Shown here: positions 9,705 through 57,200 of the stretch, piece after piece
Layout of the letters: each line of letters begins with the position of its first letter
Numbering within the stretch: position 1 is the first letter of the stretch
NCBI GenBank assembly: GCA_037043015.1
Contig: CM073322.1
Coordinates: forward strand, 25,386,364-25,450,363
Origin: Bryum argenteum
Lineage: Eukaryota; Streptophyta; Bryopsida; Bryales; Bryaceae
Direction: 5' to 3'
Length of the DNA stretch: 64,000 bases
Translations under genes and position numbers: made by a program
Notes under the pieces: generated by a model
What the model saw: only the letters and a program-made list of their open reading frames with translations
Told to the model about the DNA's origin: nothing
The model's database searches: none

Positions 9705-11601
9705 CTACAGAGCCCGTTCCAACCACGACTTTCCGTCGATGAAGGCGATGCTGCTGAACGGAGCCGCCTGCTTCGTAGTCAACACCTTCGACCACCACAC
9801 TCGCCCGTTCCTGTTGGCGCCAGGTCCCCAGCACTGGTACTCCGCGTAGAACACCGTCTTCTGTCGCTTCGGGTCCGCCCAGTCCATCCATGCCTCGGGC
9901 CGGATCATGTCCGCGATCTTGCACTGGTAGAAGATCACGCGCGAGTACGCGCCCCACGCCCGCCCCAAGTAGATCTTGCCCGACCCGCCGATGTTGCACT
10001 GGTAGAAAACGAACCCCGTCCTCGAGTTGCTCTCCCGCTTCTGGGCTGTCACTGATCCGCTGCCTGCCTTGGCGATCGATGTGAGAGTGCAGTACTGGTA
10101 GAACGACTGCCCGTCGCCGAAGATCCAGTCGATCGACCCCACGATGTCGCAGCTGCGGAAGTAGTGGCGCCCCGCCTTGTCGTACAGTGTGTCCTGCGCG
10201 CCCAGGAAGCCGCACCGGTAGAACGCGCCCTGGTCGCCCTGGATGCGCAGAGCCACCGCTTGCTTGCCCACGGCACCACCGGAAGGAGGGGGAGCGGAGT
10301 TCTGCACCACAGCCACAAAACATCTCGCTCAATTCCAAGCCGTGTAATTGCACATTTCAGCTCCCCTGTATCGAACGCGCAATCTACCTCCAGCAGCATA
10401 TTCTACAACCGGCTTTCACCGCCAGAAATACGGGCTGGGTCCAGCCGGTTCATTGAACATAATGTACCACTGGACACCCTGCATATCATTCCCACATCAC
10501 TACCCCGACATATCCCTCAAATCACGTATTCTCAGTTTTTTGAAGCAGCTTGGACATGCTATTTGACGATCCCGTGTTGTATCGACGTATCAGTACTTCA
10601 TGCCGATGGCCATTTTCATGTTTATGGGCCGTCTCAATTTCCCCAAATAGTTACTAAACTATCCGATTGCATCCATAATCGCCTACTTCAAATGCGCTAC
10701 CCAGACACCAACTCAGATCAACACCCACGCATTCCACTCACCGCGAATGTGCAGTCGGAAGCGATGAACCCAATCGACTCTACCGCCGTCGATGCGCTCA
10801 ACCCCGTTCCTCCGGCCATCTCTGCCGTCTCATACCACGTGATGATCGTCTTCCTGCTCTGGCACTTGAAGTAGATGTACGGCTTCTTGCTTGGGATTGT
10901 CAGCTTCTGCCTGCACCCACATGCGTTCAAACACTCATGGTCATATTTCCACCCAGGAGACTACCCATGAAAGTATGATCCGATCGAGTAGTACCTGTAG
11001 ACTCCGTCCAGAATTCTGATCGTCACCCTCCTCGTGTTGCCGTTCGGAACGGAGTTGATCGCAGCCTGGATGGTCCTGAAGTTGCCCTTGCCCTTGCTGT
11101 CCACCGTGATGGTCCATCCCTTGGGAGGGAACGCCGTCGTCTCCATGGTGCCATCAGACGCGATGCTCATGGACTGGACTTCTGCTTGTCTTTGGGCCTC
11201 GCAGTCGCTGAAGCAATCATAGTCGGCGGGCGCATTGCAGTCGCACACCGCTGTACTGGCACTCGGCGCCACCAGCGCCATCAGCACCAAACCCACGAGC
11301 ACAACCGCGCCATTGCGGAGAACAGCCATGTTGATCGCAATGTGGCACACACAATGCCGGAGCTAGAAACAGGAATCAACACACTGCAAACGCCGTGAGG
11401 TCAGGTGGAGATCCCAGCTACCCTCGCACCGGAGGGGGTGACTGTAAATGAAGCGGAGACCTGAGAAACACTGGGACCACGGAGGGGTTATAACGGAGAG
11501 CGGGCCGCACTGCAATCCGAGCCAGCATTGCATCGAAGTCCATGACTCCATGCAAGCAAGGAGCGTTGATGTCTAAGTTTAGTGTTCACCCAGGATTGGC
11601 A
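9690..11601. repeat. Left arm of a 1.9-kb inverted repeat
   Basis: This stretch is the reverse complement of about 14,988-16,899. It contains the whole PME gene, both introns and about 270 bp upstream. Exon-boundary coordinates in the two arms sum to 26,589, so there is no net indel from start to stop codon. Introns show scattered substitutions while the encoded proteins are identical. Homology fades after the stop codon and beyond about 11,601. Confidence 0.92.
9705..11329 (-). CDS. Pectin methylesterase (pectinesterase), palindromic copy 1
   Basis: A secreted CE8 enzyme that removes methyl esters from homogalacturonan in the cell wall. Three exons (11329-10995, 10910-10742, 10301-9705) encode 366 residues. 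It has an N-terminal signal peptide (about 1-26), a short Cys-rich stretch (CDCNAPADYDCFSDC) and then the catalytic domain. There is no long inhibitor-like PRO region. The catalytic set is complete: Q182 in KQAVAL, Q204-D205 in AQDTLY, D226 in IDWIFG and R282 in YLGRAW. IDWIFG and LGRAW are slight variants of the usual DFIFG and LGRPW. The protein is identical to the mirror gene at 15,260-16,884; all exon ends in the two genes sum to 26,589. Confidence 0.93.
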
Positions 11602-14987: not shown

Positions 14988-16899
14988 TTGCCAAACATGG
15001 GTGAACACTAAACTTGGGGCAACACGCTCCTGCTTGCATGGAGTCATGGATCTCGATGCAATGCTGGCTCGGATTGCAGTGCGGCCCGCTCTCCGTTATA
15101 ACCCCTCCGCGGTCCCAGTGTTTCTCAGGTCTCCGCTTCATTTACAGTCACCCCCTCCGGTGCGAGGGTAGCTGGGATCTCCACCTGACCTCACGGCGTT
15201 TGCAGTGTGTTGATTCCTGTTTCTAGCTCCGGCATTGTGTGTGCCACATTGCGATCAACATGGCTGTTCTCCGCAATGGCGCGGTTGTGCTCGTGGGTTT
15301 GGTGCTGATGGCGCTGGTGGCGCCGAGTGCCAGTACAGCGGTGTGCGACTGCAATGCGCCCGCCGACTATGATTGCTTCAGCGACTGCGAGGCCCAAAGA
15401 CAAGCAGAAGTCCAGTCCATGAGCATCGCGTCTGATGGCACCATGGAGACGACGGCGTTCCCTCCCAAGGGATGGACCATCACGGTGGACAGCAAGGGCA
15501 AGGGCAACTTCAGGACCATCCAGGCTGCGATCAACTCCGTTCCGAACGGCAACACGAGGAGGGTGACGATCAGAATTCTGGACGGAGTCTACAGGTACTA
15601 CTCGATCGGATCATACTTTCATGGGTAGTCTCCTGGGTGGAAATATGACCATGAGTGTTTGAACGCATGTGGGTGCAGGCAGAAGCTGACAATCCCAAGC
15701 AAGAAGCCGTACATCTACTTCAAGTGCCAGAGCAGGAAGACGATCATCACGTGGTATGAGACGGCAGAGATGGCCGGAGGAACGGGGTTGAGCGCATCGA
15801 CGGCGGTAGAGTCGATTGGGTTCATCGCTTCCGACTGCACATTCGCGGTGAGTGGAATGCGTGGGTGTTGATCTGAGTTGGTGTCTGGGTAGCGCATTTG
15901 AAGTAGGCGATTATGGATGCAATCGGATAGTTTAGTAACTATTTGGGGAAATTGAGACGGCCCATAAACATGAAAATGGCCATCGGCATGAAGTACTGAT
16001 ACGTCGATACAACACGGGATCGTCAAATAGCATGTCCAAGCTGCTTCAAAAAACTGAGAATACGCGACTTGAGGGATATGTCGGGGTAGTGATGTGGGAA
16101 TGATATGCAGGGTGTCCAGTGGTACATTATGTTCAATGAACCGGATGGACCCAGCCCGTATTTCTGGCGGGGAAATCCGGCTGTAGAATATGCTGCTGGA
16201 GGTAAATTGCGCGTACGATACAGGGGAGCTAAAATGTGCAATTACACGGCTTGGAATTTAGCGAGATGTTTTGTGGCTGTGGTGCAGAACTCCGCTCCCC
16301 CTCCTTCCGGTGGTGCCGTGGGCAAGCAAGCGGTGGCTCTGCGCATCCAGGGCGACCAGGGCGCGTTCTACCGGTGCGGCTTCCTGGGCGCGCAGGACAC
16401 ACTGTACGACAAGGCGGGGCGCCACTACTTCCGCAGCTGCGACATCGTGGGGTCGATCGACTGGATCTTCGGCGACGGGCAGTCGTTCTACCAGTACTGC
16501 ACTCTCACATCGATCGCCAAGGCAGGCAGCGGATCAGTGACAGCCCAGAAGCGGGAGAGCAACTCGAGGACGGGGTTCGTTTTCTACCAGTGCAACATCG
16601 GCGGGTCGGGCAAGATCTACTTGGGGCGGGCGTGGGGCGCGTACTCGCGCGTGATCTTCTACCAGTGCAAGATCGCGGACATGATCCGGCCCGAGGCATG
16701 GATGGACTGGGCGGACCCGAAGCGACAGAAGACGGTGTTCTACGCGGAGTACCAGTGCTGGGGACCTGGCGCCAACAGGAACGGGCGAGTGTGGTGGTCG
16801 AAGGTGTTGACTACGAAGCAGGCGGCTCCGTTCAGCAGCATCGCCTTCATCGACGGAAAGTCGTGGTTGGAACGGGCTCTGTAGACGGTTTTGTGATTG
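14988..16899. repeat. Right arm of the 1.9-kb inverted repeat
   Basis: Reverse complement of 9,690-11,601; see the left arm. It carries the plus-strand PME gene. Near its outer edge, between the upstream block and 15,001, a single net base is gained relative to the left arm. Confidence 0.92.
15260..16884 (+). CDS. Pectin methylesterase (pectinesterase), palindromic copy 2
   Basis: Exons 15260-15594, 15679-15847 and 16288-16884 encode a 366-residue secreted pectinesterase identical to the mirror copy at 9,705-11,329. It carries the same signal peptide and the catalytic residues Q182, Q204, D205, D226 and R282. The start is the ATG at 15260; the frame is open slightly upstream but has no earlier ATG. 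The third-exon acceptor is placed so that exon 2 ends in CTFA and exon 3 begins NSAP, matching the usual ITFxNSAP junction of plant PMEs. The two genes point away from each other across a 3.9-kb intergenic region. Both look functional. Confidence 0.93.
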
Positions 16900-25167: not shown

Positions 25168-26623
25168 TTAGAGGGTGCCTTGAAGCCACGACTTGCCGTC
25201 GATAAAGGCGATGCTGCTGAAGGGAGCGGCATAAGCTTTGGTCAATTTCTTGGACCACTTGACACGGCCATTGCGATTAGCGCCTGGTCCATGGCACTGG
25301 TACTCCGCATAGGACACCGTCTTCTGTCGCTTCGGGTCGGTTCAGTTGGACCATGTGGGCGATCTTGCACTTATAGAAGATCCCGCGTGAGTAGATCCCC
25401 CACGCACGGCCCAGGTAGATCGAGCCCGAGCCTCTGATATTGCACTGGAAGAACACGAATCCCTTCTTTGAGTTAGTGTCGCGCTTCTGAGCTGATCTGA
25501 TCTGATCTGATCTGCTCTCTGCCTTGGCGATCAACGTGAGAGTGTAGTACTGGTAGAGCGACTGCCCCTCGCCGAAGATCCAGTACATGGAGCCCACAAT
25601 CTCACAGCTGTGGAAGAAGTGCCACCCCGCCTTGTCGTAGAATATGTCCTGTGCTCCCAAGAAGCCGCACCGGTAGAACTCGCCCTGGTCACCCTGGATA
25701 CGAAGAGTCACCGCTTGCTTGCCCACGGTACCACCAGCAGGAGCGGCGCCTAGTTCTGCAAACAACCTAGTCAGTCAACGAGCACAAGAATCTGCCATGG
25801 TTGTACTCTAAGATGTGCACCACATCACAGTCAAGTGTAGGGGCATAAATAGTCTACTAGCTCCAGTCACATGTATTCTACTTAACATTGCACAAAACGA
25901 GGGTACTTTCAGGCAGTGATTGACAGATGCGTATAGTTCGATGCAAAATCTCATTCAATGAGTGAATTATCAGTGTCAAGTTACTAACCACGAAAGAACA
26001 GTCAGAAGCAACTAAGCCGATTGAGACGATGGCCACTGAAGCAGTACTTAACGCCGTTCCTCCCGGCCGCCTTCTCCGCCGTATCGCCCCATGTAATGAT
26101 AGTCTTTCTGCTCTAGCACTTGAAGTAGATGAAAGGCTTCTTGATTGGGATCAGAAGCTTCTGCCTGCACCAGCACTCAGCCAGAAGCGCACACAGTCAG
26201 TATAAGTCGTGTCAAGCAACCAGGAAAATTGTTACAGACCAAGGCACCGAATTACAAGAGAAGCCATTATCCACGTTCAAGATGGTCGTACCTGTAAACA
26301 CCGTCATCAATTTTTGATGGTGACCCTCTTGGTGTCGCCGTCGGGGATGGAGTTGATAGCAGCCTAAATAGTCTTGAAGTTGCCTTTGCCCTTGCTATCC
26401 ACGCTGACGGTGTAGCTCTTGGCAGGAGATGCGGTTGTGGACATAGTATGATCAATGTCCTCAATGCTCTGGCTCTGCACGCTAGTCTGTCTGTTGGATT
26501 CGTGGTTGATGTAGCAATCCCACTCGTAGTCGTCTGTGGCAGGCGCGGACCAGTCGCATCCACAACCGAGGCAAAACACGCCAGTGCCACCAAAAGAATC
26601 ACTCCATTGCGGACGAAAGCCAT
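25168..26623 (-). pseudogene. Pectin methylesterase pseudogene
   Basis: It has the same three-exon plan as the intact PMEs, but with many lesions. Exon 1 (from 26623) has a frameshift just after the signal peptide, a CAG-to-TAG change before the AAINS motif and another frameshift near its end. Exon 2 (about 26,000-26,170) has a TGC-TAG stop in the FKCQ motif. Exon 3 has a short deletion and frameshift after KIAHMV. A catalytic Asp is lost (MYWIFG where the family has IDWIFG) and QDTL has become QDIF. A (CTGAT)4 slippage tract sits at 25,492-25,514. It is head-to-head with the intact PME at 28,194. Confidence 0.93.
25492..25514. repeat. (CTGAT)4 microsatellite in the PME pseudogene
   Basis: Four CTGAT units plus a partial one replace the conserved GSGSVTA-coding stretch of the intact genes. 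This is replication slippage in an unconstrained exon. Confidence 0.9.
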
Positions 26624-28193: not shown

Positions 28194-29609
28194 ATGGCTT
28201 CCGTCCGCAATGGAGTGATTCTGTTGGTGGCACTGGCGTGTTTTGCCTCGGCTGTGACTGCTGAGGTATGCGACTGCTCCGCGCCTGCCACTGACGACTG
28301 CGAGTGGGATTGCTACATCAACCACGAATCCAACAGACAGAGCCAGAGCATCGAGGACACTGATGATACCATGTCCGCATCTCCTGCCAAGGGGTACACC
28401 ATCACCGTGGACAGCAAAGGTAAAGGCAACTTCAAGACCGTTCAGGCTGCTATCAACTCCATCCCCGATGGCAACACCAGGAGGATCACCATCCAGATCA
28501 ATGACATTGTCTTCAGGTACGACCACCCTGGACGTTACAAATCGGTGGCTGGCTTTGGGACGGGTTTCCTGGTTGGCTAGTACGTGCACGACTAGAATTG
28601 ACTGTGTGCGGTTCTGGTGCAGGCAGAAGCTTCTGATCCCAAGCAGGAAGCCTTACATCTACTTCAAGTGCCAGAGTAGGAAGACGATCATCACATGGGG
28701 CGACACGGCGGAGGAGGCGGGAGGAACGGCGTTGAGTGCTTCCGTGGCCGTTAAGTCCCTCGGCTTCATTGCTTCTGACTGTACTTTCGCGGTAATTAAG
28801 TAACTCAATTTTGATAAAGAATCAAATTTTGCATCGAACATGTCTGTAACCTTCAAGAAGCAGACCCATTGCATTGGACTTATCCTATCATTGCAACCCC
28901 AAATATACATTAGTCGAAGCCAGGAGATCCATTTAGGCACTGCATTCTGGAAGACCACCATGGCGGATTCTCGTGCTGATTGCTATCGGTGAATCGATTC
29001 AATGCTGTGCAGAACTCGGCGCCTGCTCCTGGGGGTGGTGCTATTGGCCAGCAAGCGGTGGCTCTTCGCATCCAAGGTGACCAAGGCGCGTTCTATCGGT
29101 GCGGCTTCTTGGGAGCACAGGACACATTGTACGACAAGGCAGGGCGGCACTACTTCCAGAGCTGTGAGATTGTGGGCTCCATTGACTGGATCTTTGGCGA
29201 CGGGCAGTCGTTCTACCAGTACTACACTCTCACGTCGATCGCCAAGGCAGGGAGCGGATCAGTGACAGCCCAGAAGCGCGACACTAACTCAAAATCGGGA
29301 TTCGTGTTCTTCCACTGCAACATCGGAGGGTCGGGTTCGATCTACCTGGGCCGCGCATGGGGCATATACTCGCGAGTAATCTTCTATCAGTGCAAGATCG
29401 CCAACATGATCCGCCCCGAGGGATGGATGGACTGGGCGGTCCCCAAGCGACAGAAGAAGGTGTTCTATGCGGAGTACCAGTGCTACGGACCAGGCGCTAA
29501 TCGCAATGGCCACGTCAAGTGGTCCAAGGAATTGACCAAAGCTCAGGCCGCTCCCTTCAGCAGCACCGCCTTCATCGATGGCAAGTCATGGCTCCCAGTC
29601 GCCATCTAA
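28194..29609 (+). CDS. Pectin methylesterase (pectinesterase), intact member of the second pair
   Basis: Exons 28194-28516, 28623-28791 and 29013-29609 encode 362 residues. Exons 2 and 3 have exactly the lengths of the palindromic PMEs (169 and 597 bases), so the structure is conserved. It has a signal peptide (MASVRNGVILLVALACFAS...), the CDCSAPATDDCEWDC Cys cluster and the CE8 domain with all catalytic residues (QQAVAL, AQDTLYD, IDWIFG, YLGRAW). It acts on cell-wall homogalacturonan. It is close to, but clearly distinct from, the palindromic pair, and is the intact partner of the pseudogene at 25,168-26,623. Confidence 0.93.
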
Positions 29610-36027: not shown

Positions 36028-37444
36028 TTAACCCCTAAAGGCCCAGGAAAGCCGAATCGGCGTTTTGCAGTTTTGGGCACCTTAGATGAGAGGTCAAATT
36101 TTGGTGTTTTGGGCTGTAATTTGGTGTGTGTGTCGGGAAACATAGTAATTGTGTGTGGTAAAATTTGCAAAGTAAGATTCCAATTTTAGTGCCTTGTAGA
36201 GCAAATTTTTGATTTGGAGTTGAGAAAGGGCAGAACGGGTTGTTGTTGTGGCCACTAAGGAACAAGGTGGAAATGGGGGCAGTTGCGAGGGTCACTCGAG
36301 AAAACTCCAGAGGGGCAGGGGTTCCAAGCAGGGTTTTGGAGGACCCAACATTCGGCAGAATTGAATGCTTTGGGACTGGCCAAAGATTGACGCCCCCTCC
36401 AAATACATGTCATAACTACAAACTTCGTGAAACTGGCGGCTGAGAACACACTGACATGGGGCGATTCAAATTTCAGAATTTGAATGAGAAACTCATGGAA
36501 AGATGTTGGGAACAACAAACAGCATACATCAAATCCAAAGCATATTTCAAAAGTAACAAAAATCCATTATGGCTAGTTTTGCAAATTCTTTGGACGGGGT
36601 TCCTGTGACTGCTGCCATCATTTCACTAGCAACTACCGATTCGAGAGAGGCGAGTGCAACAGTAGGAGAAGGATTCATCGAGGTGCCAGTATGGACCGAA
36701 AATGATCAGAGCACTGAAAATGGTGATTACGCAGTAGAGTCTTCGGCCAGGAGATCGAACAGCTCCTTCGTGGTCCAACTGTACTTGCCGCCGAGGTTGA
36801 GCTTCAGCGAGAGGAATCGGCGGCGAACTGTACGTGCCAGGGAGGTCGACGAGTTCCTTCGGAGGCGTACTGCAGCTGCCTCCGACCGTCCAGCTTCAAG
36901 GTCGCCGCTGCATCAAGTTCGGCAGCCTGCAGATCATCACCAACTTCGGCAGCCCATGCGCCAGTGAGCGATCAGATGATTGCACAGATCGAGGAGCGAT
37001 CACATCAACGGGTTCGAATACATGAACATGAACTTGGTTTGCATGTGGAACTTGCATGGTAAACTGACATCACATCAACTGACTAATATGACCATATGCA
37101 GGAACCCAATACTGCGGTTGTGAGTGTCGGAAACTTGCAGCCACTTCTTATTTCGACATTGCCGCCTCCATCTGCCGATCCAGAAGCTCGCCTTCGTTCC
37201 TGGGCTGTACGCAAACACCTTCGAGCACATCAGATTCATGACCTCCTTTCACTGCTTGATCAAAAACATTTGCGCAGTTTACGCGTTCGTAAGAAGTCCA
37301 AAGCTTGGCCAAGAAATCCACAAGCAAATAATTTCCGACACCATTTCTACAGGCAAGCCGCACATATTCTAGGGTGGGTTGATCAACACGCTTTTGAGCA
37401 AGAATTTCTTGATATTGTCAAATCTACTTGGCCCGATACAAGCA

Positions 37445-40196
37445 ATGCCTCCACGTCGATCATGGAAGAAGTCAAAGGAGGTGAGTATCTCTTGTGTAAC
37501 ATGTACCTAAATTTCATAGTTGAGAGTTATGAGTAATGTCTAACTTGGAGAATACAGATGGAGTGGGACAATATTCCAATGAGAAGGAGTTCACGTCTAC
37601 AGACACAACCGGAACCAACTACGGTTCCTCCAAGCCCACCATCTAGTCCTGAAGCAATATTACCTCCTCAACATCAAGAATTGCCAGATCTAGGACCTGG
37701 AGTTGAGCTCATGACCTTCCCTGATACAGATGTTGGCTTCAACGGCGAGTACTTGAATTCGCAATCTCCAGTGCATGCGTATTACCCAAGCTCAGAAGAA
37801 TTGTGTAATGAAGAAGGAGAAGATGATAGTGGTATGGAGAGAGCTGCAAGTCTTGAGGATATCCTCTGGCCACCTGAAGTCTTGCTTGCAGCAATAAACT
37901 TTGGCCGAAGAGGACGGAAGAGAGGTGGTGAGATCTACAATGCTGGACCTGATCCCGAAGAAGCAAGCGGGAGTGGTGAGATGCACGGACCAGCGCTGCA
38001 GCTAGGCGTCGACCAAGATTGCGGTGATGCAACGGCGTTGCGACTAGTATGGGACTCAAGCCGGCGGACTGCGGGCTGGCACAGCGCCGCGGCCACGAGG
38101 TCGGGCCACGTCGGCGAGTCAAGCGCGTCGGCTGCCAGCTGGGGTCCGGCGCCGAGCGCAGCGGGGCATCTCCAGCCGAACAGCAGCAACGGCCGGCACG
38201 CCTGCTTACCCGGGCACCAGGGCCTTCCTGTGGCGGGTGCATCGCCTTCTGGCCTTCCCCTTACAGGCCATACGCTTGGGCTACAAGGGCAACCAGTAGT
38301 TGTGACTTCAGAAGAAAATATTGGTCAATTCACATTGCAGCCAAATATTTTTATTGGGGAGAGAAGTACTGGTATTGGGCCTGGAGAATTCTATGGCAAT
38401 GATACTGAGGGCGGTAATAATAATATGGAGTGGGATGATGATGTTGAGGAAGAACATATAATAAGAAGGAGAATGACACGCAATGGTGTGAGGGATGATT
38501 TGGGTGGGAATGATAGTGAGGACTTACCCAATTTTGAAAGTGCCTCGATAGTGATGGAGATAATCGTAACGATGGGTTACCCCATCAACAAGAGGATATT
38601 AGGTGGCAATTTAGGAATGAGACTTGGGGAAACCCAAGTATTATGTATAATCCAATGCCGATATCATTTTTGGGGAAACCCATGGGTCCTTCTCGTCATC
38701 ATCGTGGTATGCCAAGTTTTATGGATTTATTTGGCCTCTTTTGGACTCCACACATGTTGGCCACTATTGTTCAAGAAACTAATCGGTATGCAAATGCTCC
38801 TTTAGATGAGCATGGAAATACCAAAGGTGGTCCTACTTGGGAGAATATGACAATTTCGAGCCTCAAAGCATTTATGGCCTTAGCCATATATATGGGGTTG
38901 AGGGTTCAACCTAATGTAAGAACATATTGGATGCGTGATGACCTCTTTGGATGCCCAAGTATTTCAAATATATTTACACGGGCCCGATTTCAAGACATTA
39001 GGAGATGTCTCCATCTTACAAACATGGAAGGACAAACTAGAGGGGACCCGGGTTATGACAAAATCGGTCAAACAAGATGGTTAGTCAATGCTATGAGAGA
39101 TCAATGTAAAAAGCATGGTTTCTTGGAAAATATTTGACCATTGATGAAATGATGATTCGCTATAAGGGGACATATTCACCGATACGTCAATATATGCCTA
39201 AGAAGCCTCAAAAGTGGGGCTTGAAGGTTTGGTGTTTGGCATGCTCGATTTCAAAGTTCGTATGGAATTTCGAGATCTATTGTGGAAAAGACAATATTGT
39301 AGCCCCCCTTCCCATAGAACAACCTAATATTGTTCTTGGCGATGCTCGATTGGCCCATAATGTAGTTATGAGGTTAGTGGATGGCCTTTGGAACTTAGGC
39401 CATTGCGTGACAATGGATAATTACTTCACTAGTTTTGGACTTTTCACAACTCTTTTATCACGGGAAATGTATGCATGTGGGACAATAAGGGCAAACCGGG
39501 TTGGTCTTCCCTTAGATTTGAAAAACACCAATTCTTTCAAAAATGTGCCTCAAGGCACAACTTTATGGAAAATGCATGACACCCGCACGATATCATGTGT
39601 TATGTGGAAGGATAAGAAGCCCGTGCTTCTTATTTCCACTCATTATTTGCCAATTCAACCCCCATGTGAGAAGGTAGTAACGGTCCCTCGGCGAAATGGT
39701 GCAAGTCGTGAAATGATTCTAACATCCCCGATTTTGAAAGAATATACAACTCACATGCGAGGTGTAGATGTTGCCGATCAACTCCGAGCATCCTATTCAT
39801 GCCAAGTACGGAGCCACAAGTGGTGGCACCGTATTTTTTCTTCTTATTGGATGTCTCGATTGTCAACATGTATATATATTATTTGGAGTGTGTGAAACAC
39901 TATCGATATAACCGCACGCCGATGACACACCTTCAATTCAAGAAGGGCTTATGTGAAGCCCTTCTTCAAGGGTGGCCTATGAGAGATTCACACCCGCGGA
40001 TATTCCTCGAGCAAGGAACACGCCATTGATTTGTGTACCCACATATACAAAATTACGACGTCGGTGTGTGGTTTGCCAAAAATTTGAACCACATTATTAT
40101 CGCCGGAAGTGTGGAGACAAATGGATGTGTCTCAATCGAGGTTGCTTTGAGAAGTGGCACACAGATATTGCCATACGACGCCAACGCCATATGTGA
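37445..40196 (+). pseudogene. piggyBac-like transposase, frameshifted
   Basis: A likely first exon (37445-37480, MPPRRSWKKSKE) splices over a 77-bp GT-AG intron to 37558 (MEWDNIPMRRSS). An acidic, low-complexity N-terminal region precedes the DDE_Tnp_1_7 core. Motifs include IDEMMIRYKG, then the three aspartates expected for catalysis: VTMDNYFTS, WKDKKPV and GVDVADQ. A C-terminal Cys-rich zinc domain follows (RCVVCQKF, CGDKWMC, RGCFEKWH). Single-base frameshifts near 38,545, 39,130, 39,835 and 39,975 break the frame, so no full protein can be made. The rest is well conserved, suggesting fairly recent decay. Confidence 0.9.
37975..38290. other. GC-rich segment inside the transposase N-terminal region
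   Basis: A block of about 300 bp is sharply richer in G and C than the surrounding AT-rich element. It stays open in the transposase frame but gives low-complexity sequence. It is also open in two other frames, which suggests an inserted host fragment rather than transposase sequence. I do not recognise its source. Confidence 0.5.
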
Positions 40197-40199
40197 GTG

Positions 40200-40560
40200 A
40201 ATGTAAGTATTTCTTTTTGCATACAAAGAGGAAGCTCAAGTTTGTTACCCCACATTTTGCGCATATAGTACTTTGCTTGTGAATAATAGTACTTTCCTTG
40301 TGAATAATACTTTGCTTTATTTCAACCCCACAAACAAACGTTAGTAATAATAATATGAATAGTACTTTGCTTGTGAATAATACTTTGCTATGTTTTTTAT
40401 CCCACAAACAAATATGAATAGTAGTTGAGTTATGAATAATACTTTGCTTTATTTCTTACCCCACAAACAAATGACACCACAATAATTTGAATATTGCTTG
40501 TGAATAATTCTTTGCTTTGTTTCTTACCCCACATACAAAAGTTAGTAATAATACTATGAA
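40200..40560. repeat. Imperfect tandem repeat, about 100-bp unit
   Basis: About three to four copies of a unit built from CTTGTGAATAATACTTTGCTTT and CCCCACAAACAAA lie just after the transposase stop, inside the piggyBac-like element. Confidence 0.75.
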
Positions 40561-41734
40561 TAATACTATGCTTATGGATAATTTATTTTTTTATTAGTTA
40601 CATTAGAATTCTTGTAAATTGATAAATTTTGGTGATTTTGTAGGTGTTCGGCAATCCCTGGAGTCCTTTCTCCAGTTAGGAGAATTCTATTTTGTGCCCT
40701 GGAGAACGACTTCGCAAAGGGGGCTTCAATCAGTGCGCCTACTGCACGGTACAAGTGGTGGCCAGGGACGGCAGCAAGGCGGGCCAGCTCCTCCAGCTCG
40801 GCTCTTTCCAGATCACGAAATTCCTGCCACCTCATGTGGCTCCCCAAGGTGCCAGTCAAATCCACTTTGTCGTTGCAAGCGTGGGCCTTTTTGTCAGATC
40901 ATCTTTTTATAGGGAACTTATAAAGAGCTTAGGGAGCTTAGTAACGGTGGGGAGCAACGGGAAGAAAGCCCTCCCTTTATTGCAAGTGACACATGTCATA
41001 GCTATCTACATAGAATATTAGGCAAAGTATTTATGGTGGCAGTAGGCTATTCATAGCTCTGCCATATTGCCAGCAATGGGCCCGTAAGATTGAGAATGGG
41101 TTCCCATTCTTCTTTGTTGCCCGTCCATTTACTAATTTGCATATGTGTGTTTATGTTCTCCAAAATTGTCAATAATTGAGATTTTACTTTTTTCAAATTT
41201 TTTTCCCCCATGACTCTGATTTGTGTAAAGGAACATTTTCACCGTTCACTTTTGAAAAATTCAAAAAGTTGATGGTGGATTTGTATTAGAACCCCAATTT
41301 GTTCACTTAGAGTACTTTTTTGCCTCCTTCTAGAAAAAAAAAAAAAAAAAATTGTATGAAGGTCCAAAAAGTGGAATGAGTGTCTAAAATTTTGCATGGG
41401 TGTGGCCAACTTGATTTCTAACATGGAAAAAAATACTAGCAAAATGTTTAGGGTAACAATCACCAAGTCTCCCTTTGCACCAAGTAGACTATGTCTTTCG
41501 GGCAAGCCACAAAAAAATTTCTGCATCAACTTTGAACGTTATGATCTCACAAATGGTGCAGATCCAACGGTTGAGATTTGACATGGTAATCATGGATGAA
41601 GTTAGGTTCAAGATCTTACGGTTGAATGTTCCAGAATACAATAAAAATTTATGCCATACTCCAAACTCCACAATGTGGTCAAAAATCGCAGATTTTGAGA
41701 TTGGAGGTTGCAAAAACGCTTGGGCCTTTAGGGG

Positions 41735-42877
41735 TTAAGTATATAAAATTTGACAATATATCTCTAGCAACTCTGCGGGCCATAGTGTGATTAAGGACAA
41801 GAGCCATAATGGTTTGAAGGACGAGAGCCATACGTCTAACTGTGTTGAAGGACGAGAGCCATACGTCTAACTGTGTTGAAGGACGAGAGCCATACGTCTA
41901 ACTGTGTGATTGAAGGACGAGAGCTATACTAGTCTAATTGAAGGACAAAGGCCATATTTGTCTAATTGAAGGACGAGAGCCATACTAGTCTACTTGAAGG
42001 ACGAGAGCCATACTAGTCTACTTGAGGGACGAGAGCTGGAATAGGTAGCACGTTAATCAAATTCAAATTCGTCCCTGATTATTAGATTTGTACAGACTGT
42101 CAAACCATTCATATTGTAATTGTTCCATATATTGCTCATTATTCTGCACAGAAACTCAATGGAGTAAAAAAAGCAAGTGAATAATTTACAGCATCCAAAA
42201 GTTATGTGACTTGTAAAATTTTGAGATACTTTCTTTCAATTGTAAAGCATTGACCTGTTCCAATGCATTTAAGGGTTAACTTGGAACCGAAGAAACAGCT
42301 TCGGACCACTTGAGCCCCAAGTCATGTCCAGCTTGCCAGTTCATAAAGATACAGCTCTTTTTCTCCTACAAAACGTAAGTTCTTTTCAGAATTTCAGAAC
42401 CTTGCTGTTTTTTCCAATGAAACTCGTTATATCACCCAGCATTAAACTATCGTAAGAATCAAACAATGGCAGCATGTGGTGAGAAAGTAAAGTGAGGATA
42501 TAAACGACGCCGAATGAGCTGAAGTATAACCTTGGGATTCATCAAAAAAATCTAAAATACAAGACATGCATCAGGTGTAACATATTCACACCCTTATTCA
42601 TGAACCTTCATACCGCTTCAGCTAATACCAATCACAGAAGCAAATAAAATAAGGACCCAGAGATGGGTTATAGAGAGATAGATATCTAATAACAACGATA
42701 CCACAGAAGGAAATTTAAAAATTCTATAAAACCATATTTAGTACCTGAAACGCGACCAGCCCTGCTATGCTTGAGGTGTTACATAAGAATGTGCAACAAT
42801 CGCCTCTACAAATCAAAGAATAGGATCTTCGAACGAAGTATGAACATTGACCAGCCAGGTCTTCCTTGTAAAATCCG
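41735..42877. other. Spacer between the piggyBac element and RAB2
   Basis: No gene is supported. It starts with the right TTAA, followed by the minisatellite at 41,790-42,034, then about 840 bp of AT-rich sequence in which the RAB2 3' UTR must lie. Confidence 0.5.
41790..42034. repeat. Minisatellite, about 9 units of 23-36 bp
   Basis: The core GAAGGACGAGAGCCATA is repeated about nine times with changing tails (CGTCTAACTGTGTT, then CTAGTCTAATT or CTAGTCTACTT). The first three full units are 31 bp and nearly identical. It begins about 55 bp beyond the TTAA of the piggyBac-like element. Confidence 0.9.
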
Positions 42878-56923: not shown

Positions 56924-57200
56924 CCCCTAAAGTCGTAAGCCCCCAAAACTTCCAAAACTCCTCAAAACCACACTCTTTCAATGCAAGATGAAAATTTTCA
57001 ACTTTTGACATAATTTGAAGTATATAACCCTAAGATCTTATACCTAACTTGTCCATGTATGTGAGTACCAAAATTTAGTTTCAAATTCCTTACCAATTGT
57101 GAGATTGTAACATTCAAAGTTGAAAAAAGAAGTATTTTTCCCTTGTTGCAAAATCTAGGTTTGAAGTTATTTGTGTGCTCAATAAACCAATTTTAAGAGT
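56924..57200. mobile_element. Left terminus of another TTAA-type element
   Basis: CCCCTAAAGTCGTAAGCCC follows TTAA at 56,920-56,923. The next roughly 240 bp resemble the inverse of the piggyBac-like element's right end (blocks around AAGATCTTATACCTAACTT and TTGTGAGATTGTAACATTC) and the fragment ending at 35,066. No matching right end was located. Confidence 0.6.

Follow-up and report, generated by a model that had tools for sequence, protein, structure and literature searches.

The closest described relatives of the element reported here belong to the piggyBac superfamily, and two of them have animal transposases of solved structure. One is piggyBat, a bat element (PDB 9c0f). The other is piggyBac (IFP2) from Trichoplusia ni (PDB 6x67/6x68), which has a TTAA target, 14-bp terminal inverted repeats (TIRs) and a length of 2,472 bp (PMC10140906). 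In land plants, piggyBac is already on record at the superfamily level. An account of 2008 held that only five other superfamilies had then been described in plants (PMC2528002), and by 2015 PiggyBac appeared in Table 2 of PMC4438587 among the superfamilies of all studied groups, land plants included. C-fern has 1,230 PiggyBac elements covering 122 kb (PMC6890710), feather grass has one PiggyBac of 75 bp (PMC8319324), PiggyBac miniature inverted-repeat transposable elements (MITEs) are listed for angiosperms (PMC10004981), and a 2025 paper mentions occasional occurrences in plant genomes, e.g., red algae (PMC12732532). For P. patens, PMC5505980 states that the piggyBac system of animals was still untested. 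Here we analysed a window of 64,000 nt, which is the whole stretch of DNA from contig C2:25386364-25450363 of a 258.8-Mb assembly with 25 contigs, and found a piggyBac-type element of 5,703 bp at positions 36032-41734 of that window. With a probability of roughly 0.93, we consider it to be a true piggyBac element, hosted by a plant that is most likely a moss and belonging to a recently mobile family.

The land-plant entries and MITEs of PMC6890710, PMC10004981 and PMC4438587 have the superfamily name and the plant host in common with this element; in their accessible text they are annotation counts or superfamily lists, without a named family, TIR, domain map or age. Our literature search found no moss piggyBac family and no recent activity of a native land-plant piggyBac, with most subscription journals and Repbase lying outside its coverage. 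The first-pass annotation of the window had described such elements as rarely described in land plants, which is a fair statement, but they are not unheard of there, being listed in Table 2 of PMC4438587 and in PMC6890710.

The borders of the element resemble those of T. ni piggyBac in both the TTAA target and the 14-bp TIRs. Specifically, TTAA stands on both sides, and the termini CCCCTAAAGGCCCA / TGGGCCTTTAGGGG match perfectly across 14 bp, just as the first-pass annotation had read them, and diverge from base 15 (Table 1). A repeat search reports a perfect inverted repeat of 21 bp, because the flanks also read TACTTAA / TTAAGTA. The 18-mer formed by TTAA and the TIR has 4,527 + 4,611 = 9,138 sites in the assembly with up to 2 mismatches, versus 0 + 3 sites for the reversed control pattern, and given this genome-wide count the termini are no chance match. 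When the window was scanned for the TIR, every other site was at least 3 mismatches away. A lone TIR with 1-3 mismatches lies beside a TTAA at window position 56924. Near the right insertion border, positions 41790-42040 hold an imperfect tandem repeat with a unit of about 31 bp (TTGAAGGACGAGAGCCATACGTCTAACTGTG).

The coding region of the element matches piggyBac transposases. The PF13843 (DDE_Tnp_1_7) profile matches the window at 39128-39892 with E=1.2e-42 and a sister copy, L049, with E=1.3e-75. A phmmer search with L049 as the query retrieved piggyBat 9c0f (E=3e-27), which is the best solved match, and T. ni piggyBac 6x67 (E=4.3e-25). The three catalytic aspartates that the first-pass annotation had assigned to the transposase lie in TIDEMM (39143-39145), TMDNYF (39416-39418), and RGVDVADQ (39767-39769), and they align with those of both 9c0f and 6x67. 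The catalytic domain is 24-28% identical to that of T. ni piggyBac, an element of less than half the length (2,472 bp versus 5.7 kb), and 23-28% identical to that of piggyBat, which has an animal host, the same catalytic residues and a Cys-rich C-terminus with a similar ending (CFEKYHT / CFEKWHT). As for the C-terminal Cys-rich domain proposed earlier, the window carries a CxxC...C...C...C...H segment with a sub-threshold match to the Cys-rich end of piggyBat (domain 2), whereas the suggested zinc ribbon had no Pfam match above cut-off among the scanned proteins.

The predicted architecture of the moss transposase departs from that of both solved animal enzymes by an extra N-terminal domain and a long linker. 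The match begins at residue 105 of 578 in the piggyBat chain versus residue 396 of 916 in the L049 open frame, and, unlike T. ni piggyBac, the moss element has a long N-terminal portion that includes a separate domain, and its coding region is probably spliced. The N-terminal domain would need an intron to be joined to the next coding stretch, and in the window family 58 frame-keeping GT..AG joins are possible. In the window copy, the remaining coding sequence runs through 37558-~38546, on to 39137, 39134-~39845, ~39845-39990, and 39993-40196. The copy had been called full-length, which holds for the element as a whole but not for its reading frame, spread as this is across five stretches in changing frames. 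Comparison with the open L049 shows five single-base insertions or deletions (indels) in the coding region of the window copy. Among 14 fetched regions, six (L039, L045, and L049-L052) keep the PF13843 domain stop-free in a single frame, with open frames of 916 aa in L049, 831 aa in L050, L051, and L052, 553 aa in L039, and 515 aa in L045.

Table 1 Coordinates of the element's features within the 64,000-nt window
Feature	Position	Strand	Support
Left target-site duplication TTAA	36028..36031	.	TTAA on both sides also in 12/12 whole sister copies
Left terminal inverted repeat, 14 bp, perfect	36032..36045	+	
Subterminal motif AAGCCGAATCGGC, common to the 261-bp MITE; core GCCGAATCGGC at 36051	36049..36061	+	MITE alignment, blastn
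Conserved N-terminal transposase domain, ~100 aa	37096..37480	+	58 places at 100% aa identity, window included
Long variable transposase linker, first frame segment	37558..38546	+	ORF 37558-38805; continuous with DDE domain in L049-L052
Start of PF13843 region, second frame segment	38643..39137	+	ORF list; same residues inside the 916-aa L049 frame
Catalytic region with three aspartates, third frame segment	39134..39845	+	ORF reaches 39895; PF13843; alignment with piggyBat and T. ni piggyBac
End of catalytic region, fourth frame segment (...DVSIVNMYIYYLECVKHY...)	39845..39990, start approximate	+	Three-frame translation versus L049
C-terminal Cys-rich motif (CVVC...C...C...C...WHT), in fifth frame segment	40065..40163	+	
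Imperfect direct repeats, families D1 and D2, 3' of the coding region	40265..40611	.	Repeat search
Right terminal inverted repeat, 14 bp, perfect	41721..41734	-	
Right target-site duplication TTAA	41735..41738	.	

The element is one of a large and homogeneous family. A family-specific 31-mer from the left end occurs 62 times, always exactly even with 2 mismatches permitted, and a 30-mer from the transposase occurs 62 times exactly with 3 mismatches permitted, plus nine times at 3 mismatches, which we took as relatives. Each of the 62 left ends is paired with a transposase site 3,109-3,122 bp away, and the copies are spread over all of the contigs C1-C11. No shortened derivative with an exact left 31-mer was seen, as the transposase 30-mer accompanies all 62 left ends. 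The 14 fetched regions comprise 12 whole copies (L039-L050) and two copies cut by the fetch borders (L051 and L052). All 12 whole copies have the same borders with TTAA on both sides, and 11 of them are nearly identical to the window copy. Specifically, the window copy and these 11 others (66 pairs, L039 excluded) differ by a mean of 0.093% substitutions with a range of 0-0.25%, while L039, which lies on C1, is 96-103 substitutions away from the remaining copies. Plant genomes are substituted at about 7e-9 per site per year, and with this rate as a rough guide the divergence within the family would correspond to the order of 1e5 years or less. As judged from the sequence, the roughly sixty near-identical copies and the hundreds of tiny relatives described below show that the family jumped very recently. 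At C2 ~1912919 (L077), two elements stand head to head with their left ends sharing a single TTAA, one copy apparently having inserted at the TTAA flank of the other. Right beside copy L042, at position 500 of that locus, there is another piggyBac end, with a TIR of 1-3 mismatches next to TTAA.

Animal piggyBac MITEs are short, non-autonomous elements that have their TIR and TTAA in common with an autonomous family. In this assembly, pairs of TTAA and TIR spanning 269-273 bp recurred among the first 100 places listed by the 18-mer search. Ten near-identical copies with differing flanks were fetched; from TTAA to TTAA, eight of them measure 261 bp, one 262 bp, and one 265 bp, the TTAAs not counted. 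All ten carry the same 14-bp TIR with TTAA on both sides and are too short for a transposase gene. A MITE-internal 30-mer gave 600 matches with up to 3 mismatches and its control none. The MITE has the same TIR and the same subterminal AAGCCGAATCGGC as the 5.7-kb element, and a stretch of about 135 bp near one end is 72-73% identical between the two. We also considered the MITE as an internal deletion of the window family; this origin is unsupported, since the match in the interior is limited to those 135 bp, and the MITE differs in this respect from its animal counterparts. The MITE would be mobilized by an enzyme of the 5.7-kb element's kind. Because the 9,138 sites far exceed what the 5.7-kb element and the MITE can supply, further elements with this TIR must exist, and one locus of another family (L054) has TTAA and TIR with 1 mismatch at both ends (positions 2477 and 7754).

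Next, the sites occupied by these elements were compared with uninterrupted sites elsewhere in the genome. We joined the flanks of 23 insertions across one TTAA (60+60 bp, with only 3 right-hand bases for L050) and searched them jointly, the best 40 of 4,028 candidates being scored. Among these, a MITE (L060) has at least 28 uninterrupted sites at 98-100% identity and the full-length copy L045 at least 12 at 98%. The window site, searched separately, returned its own two halves and 38 places that span the junction at 73-95% identity (best 40 of 59). Since these relatives cross the junction uninterrupted, the window element must lie inside a dispersed repeat, related copies of which do not contain it. 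The junction letters were read at 8 of the 78 sites and showed a single TTAA in five and one changed base in three; the five comprise 3 of the 5 sites read for the window copy, 1 of the 2 read for L045, and the 1 read for L060. The empty TTAA sites that the first-pass annotation had proposed to look for thus exist in paralogous form for all three elements. They show clean insertion only, and excision and reinsertion by the enzyme are presumed. Judging from the relatives of solved structure and from what is generally known about this superfamily, the transposase would bind the element ends, cut via hairpin intermediates by using its three aspartates, and insert the element at TTAA, and excision would be seamless.

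Several observations weigh against the reading of a genuine and recently mobile plant family. The uninterrupted sites of the window copy are related repeats rather than its own pre-insertion locus; of the copies seen with one end, L052 is flanked by TTAA and L051 by TTAT (at its position 1157, either a mutated duplication or a non-canonical target); the mobility of the family is read from assembled DNA; and the assembled window copy cannot encode one continuous transposase. The last point would fit a window copy that is a dead fossil of a long inactive family, and so would the stops in other superfamily loci and the distance of L039 from the remaining copies. We consider this explanation very improbable, because 12 copies, the window copy included, differ by no more than 0.25% substitutions, 62 transposase 30-mers are exact despite the mismatches permitted, and the PF13843 domain is free of stops in six fetched regions. 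It is about as likely as not that errors of the long-read assembly account for most of the single-base indels that break the frame, in which case the plant itself may have an intact version of the window copy. Near-identical copies show 0-14 substitutions versus 3-15 indel events per pair, with a mean of 9.6 indel events against substitutions that average about 5 per 5.7-kb pair; L040 and L041 differ by 10 indels and 0 substitutions. This excess in L040-L050 and the window copy points to residual assembly error, and the recurrent indels are scattered and do not track the substitutions, L040 having one and L041 another. Among the five window indels, one is private and one is shared with a single other near-identical copy, but the remaining three are also present in 6-7 of the 10 further near-identical copies that were set against L049. 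These three may be real variants, since they recur at the same place in several copies, and homopolymer slippage is also a real process. Because its coding frame is broken, this individual copy may be no more than a passenger if its indels are real and not errors of the assembly.

The host was examined in the same assembly, as animals, fungi, and protists are the best-known hosts of the superfamily (PMC12732532) and the stretch might be contamination from such a source. Two adjacent PsaA/PsaB genes lie on contig C12, which was taken as the plastid contig. Its PsaB best matches the chains 7ksq, 6l35, and 8htu (1671 bits), followed by 9lut (1632) and 7wfd (1605), with 1587 bits to pea 5l8r and 1513 bits to a Chlamydomonas set including 6ijo. 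Like 6l35, 7ksq and 8htu are photosystem I chains from Physcomitrium patens (Physcomitrella patens). The entry 6L35 is assigned to that moss, 4XK8/5L8R to pea, and 6IJO to Chlamydomonas in PMC7884438. The host is thus very likely a plant and, by its plastid PsaB, most like a moss, although this placement by sequence comes from one plastid gene and is a further point to be held against the reading we prefer. Animal or protist contamination is extremely improbable, given that the 62 copies lie on all of C1-C11 in an assembly with a moss-like plastid contig, that one end of C8 consists of TTTAGGG repeats, that pectinesterase, Ras-family, and POT-family genes adjoin the element, and that insertions lie in the genome's own repeats. 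A recent arrival of the family by horizontal transfer from another eukaryote, in place of an old moss lineage, is unlikely, but less so than contamination or a dead family: copies as uniform as these agree equally well with a recent invasion and with a recent burst, whereas relatives and distant families with the same N-terminal domain in this genome, described next, fit long residence.

We next turn to other piggyBac families in the same genome. A PF13843 search of the assembly yielded 775 candidates, the best 116 of which were scored and all lay above the cut-off, with zero matches in 14 control genomes. The catalytic domains were compared in 14 rows representing 11 distinct loci, as three loci were fetched twice (L002/L056, L003/L053, and L008/L054). 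They fall into six groups with 37-46% identity between groups and 23-28% to the two animal enzymes; relatives with 74-76% catalytic-domain identity are also present. The catalytic region contains a stop in L004 and in L007, the latter also being without the second aspartate. In a tree of these rows with the two animal enzymes, the genome rows lie on one side (99/99) and the animal branches are very long. Relatives were also sought in a viral-contig collection (19 pattern matches) and a genome-contig collection (46), where zero were confirmed, so the tree has no algal or fungal rows. For the suggestion of a plant lineage of the superfamily, this branch between rows from 11 loci of this genome and two animal enzymes is a weak test.

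The N-terminal domain is shared well beyond the window family. It was found at no fewer than 58 places at 100% amino acid identity, and at least 88 diverged matches have 46-72% identity (best 150 of 324 candidates). For at least 27 of these 88, a PF13843 match on the same strand is listed no more than 4 kb downstream, while shifted controls gave 0, 1, and 0 such pairs at 50, -50, and 100 kb. In L055 and L057 the N-terminal and catalytic domains stand in one open frame, and tblastn places the domain upstream in L053, L054, and L056 (E 4e-6 to 2e-9, 32-35% identity). Altogether the domain is present in five of the six sampled groups; the locus of the sixth (L007) covers only 1.5 kb upstream and has no match there. 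Comparison of the domain with Pfam and PDB gave nothing credible, the best PDB profile match having E=0.11; a BEN-like domain was considered as a candidate identity.

The copies are distributed unevenly among the contigs. C1, the largest contig seen (44.1 Mb), carries 1 of the 62 copies versus 10.6 expected by size (binomial P=1.3e-4), and C2 carries 18 versus 8.3 expected (P=9.6e-4). Exact MITE 30-mers number at least 1 on C1 versus at least 43 on C2 among the matches listed, and C1 carries 5 of the 116 scored PF13843 matches. The scarcity on C1 possibly reflects a gene-poor or sex chromosome. As a tentative proposal, to which we give somewhat less than even odds, mosses harbour an ancient branch of piggyBac that has diversified and is still mobile, its transposases having an extra N-terminal domain that matches no Pfam family and no solved structure and was not seen in either solved animal enzyme. 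On this proposal, the domain could bind DNA or chromatin and thereby direct where TTAA insertion takes place in plants, one example being avoidance of the largest contig. The extra domain makes the site choice of plant piggyBac and the question of a single plant lineage directly testable. With its dozens of near-identical copies, its fresh MITEs, and the uninterrupted sites elsewhere in the genome, this family native to a plant would be a ready subject for the study of active piggyBac transposition in a plant.

Finally, the window also contains a Copia element and four pectinesterase-like frames, the latter at 9705-10316 (-), 16105-16884 (+), 25277-25765 (-), and 28980-29609 (+). The frames at 16105 and 28980 match PF01095, whereas those at 9705 and 25277 were assigned by visual inspection. 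The frames at 9705-10316 and 16105-16884 encode nearly identical proteins in opposite orientation, which suggests a recent duplication.

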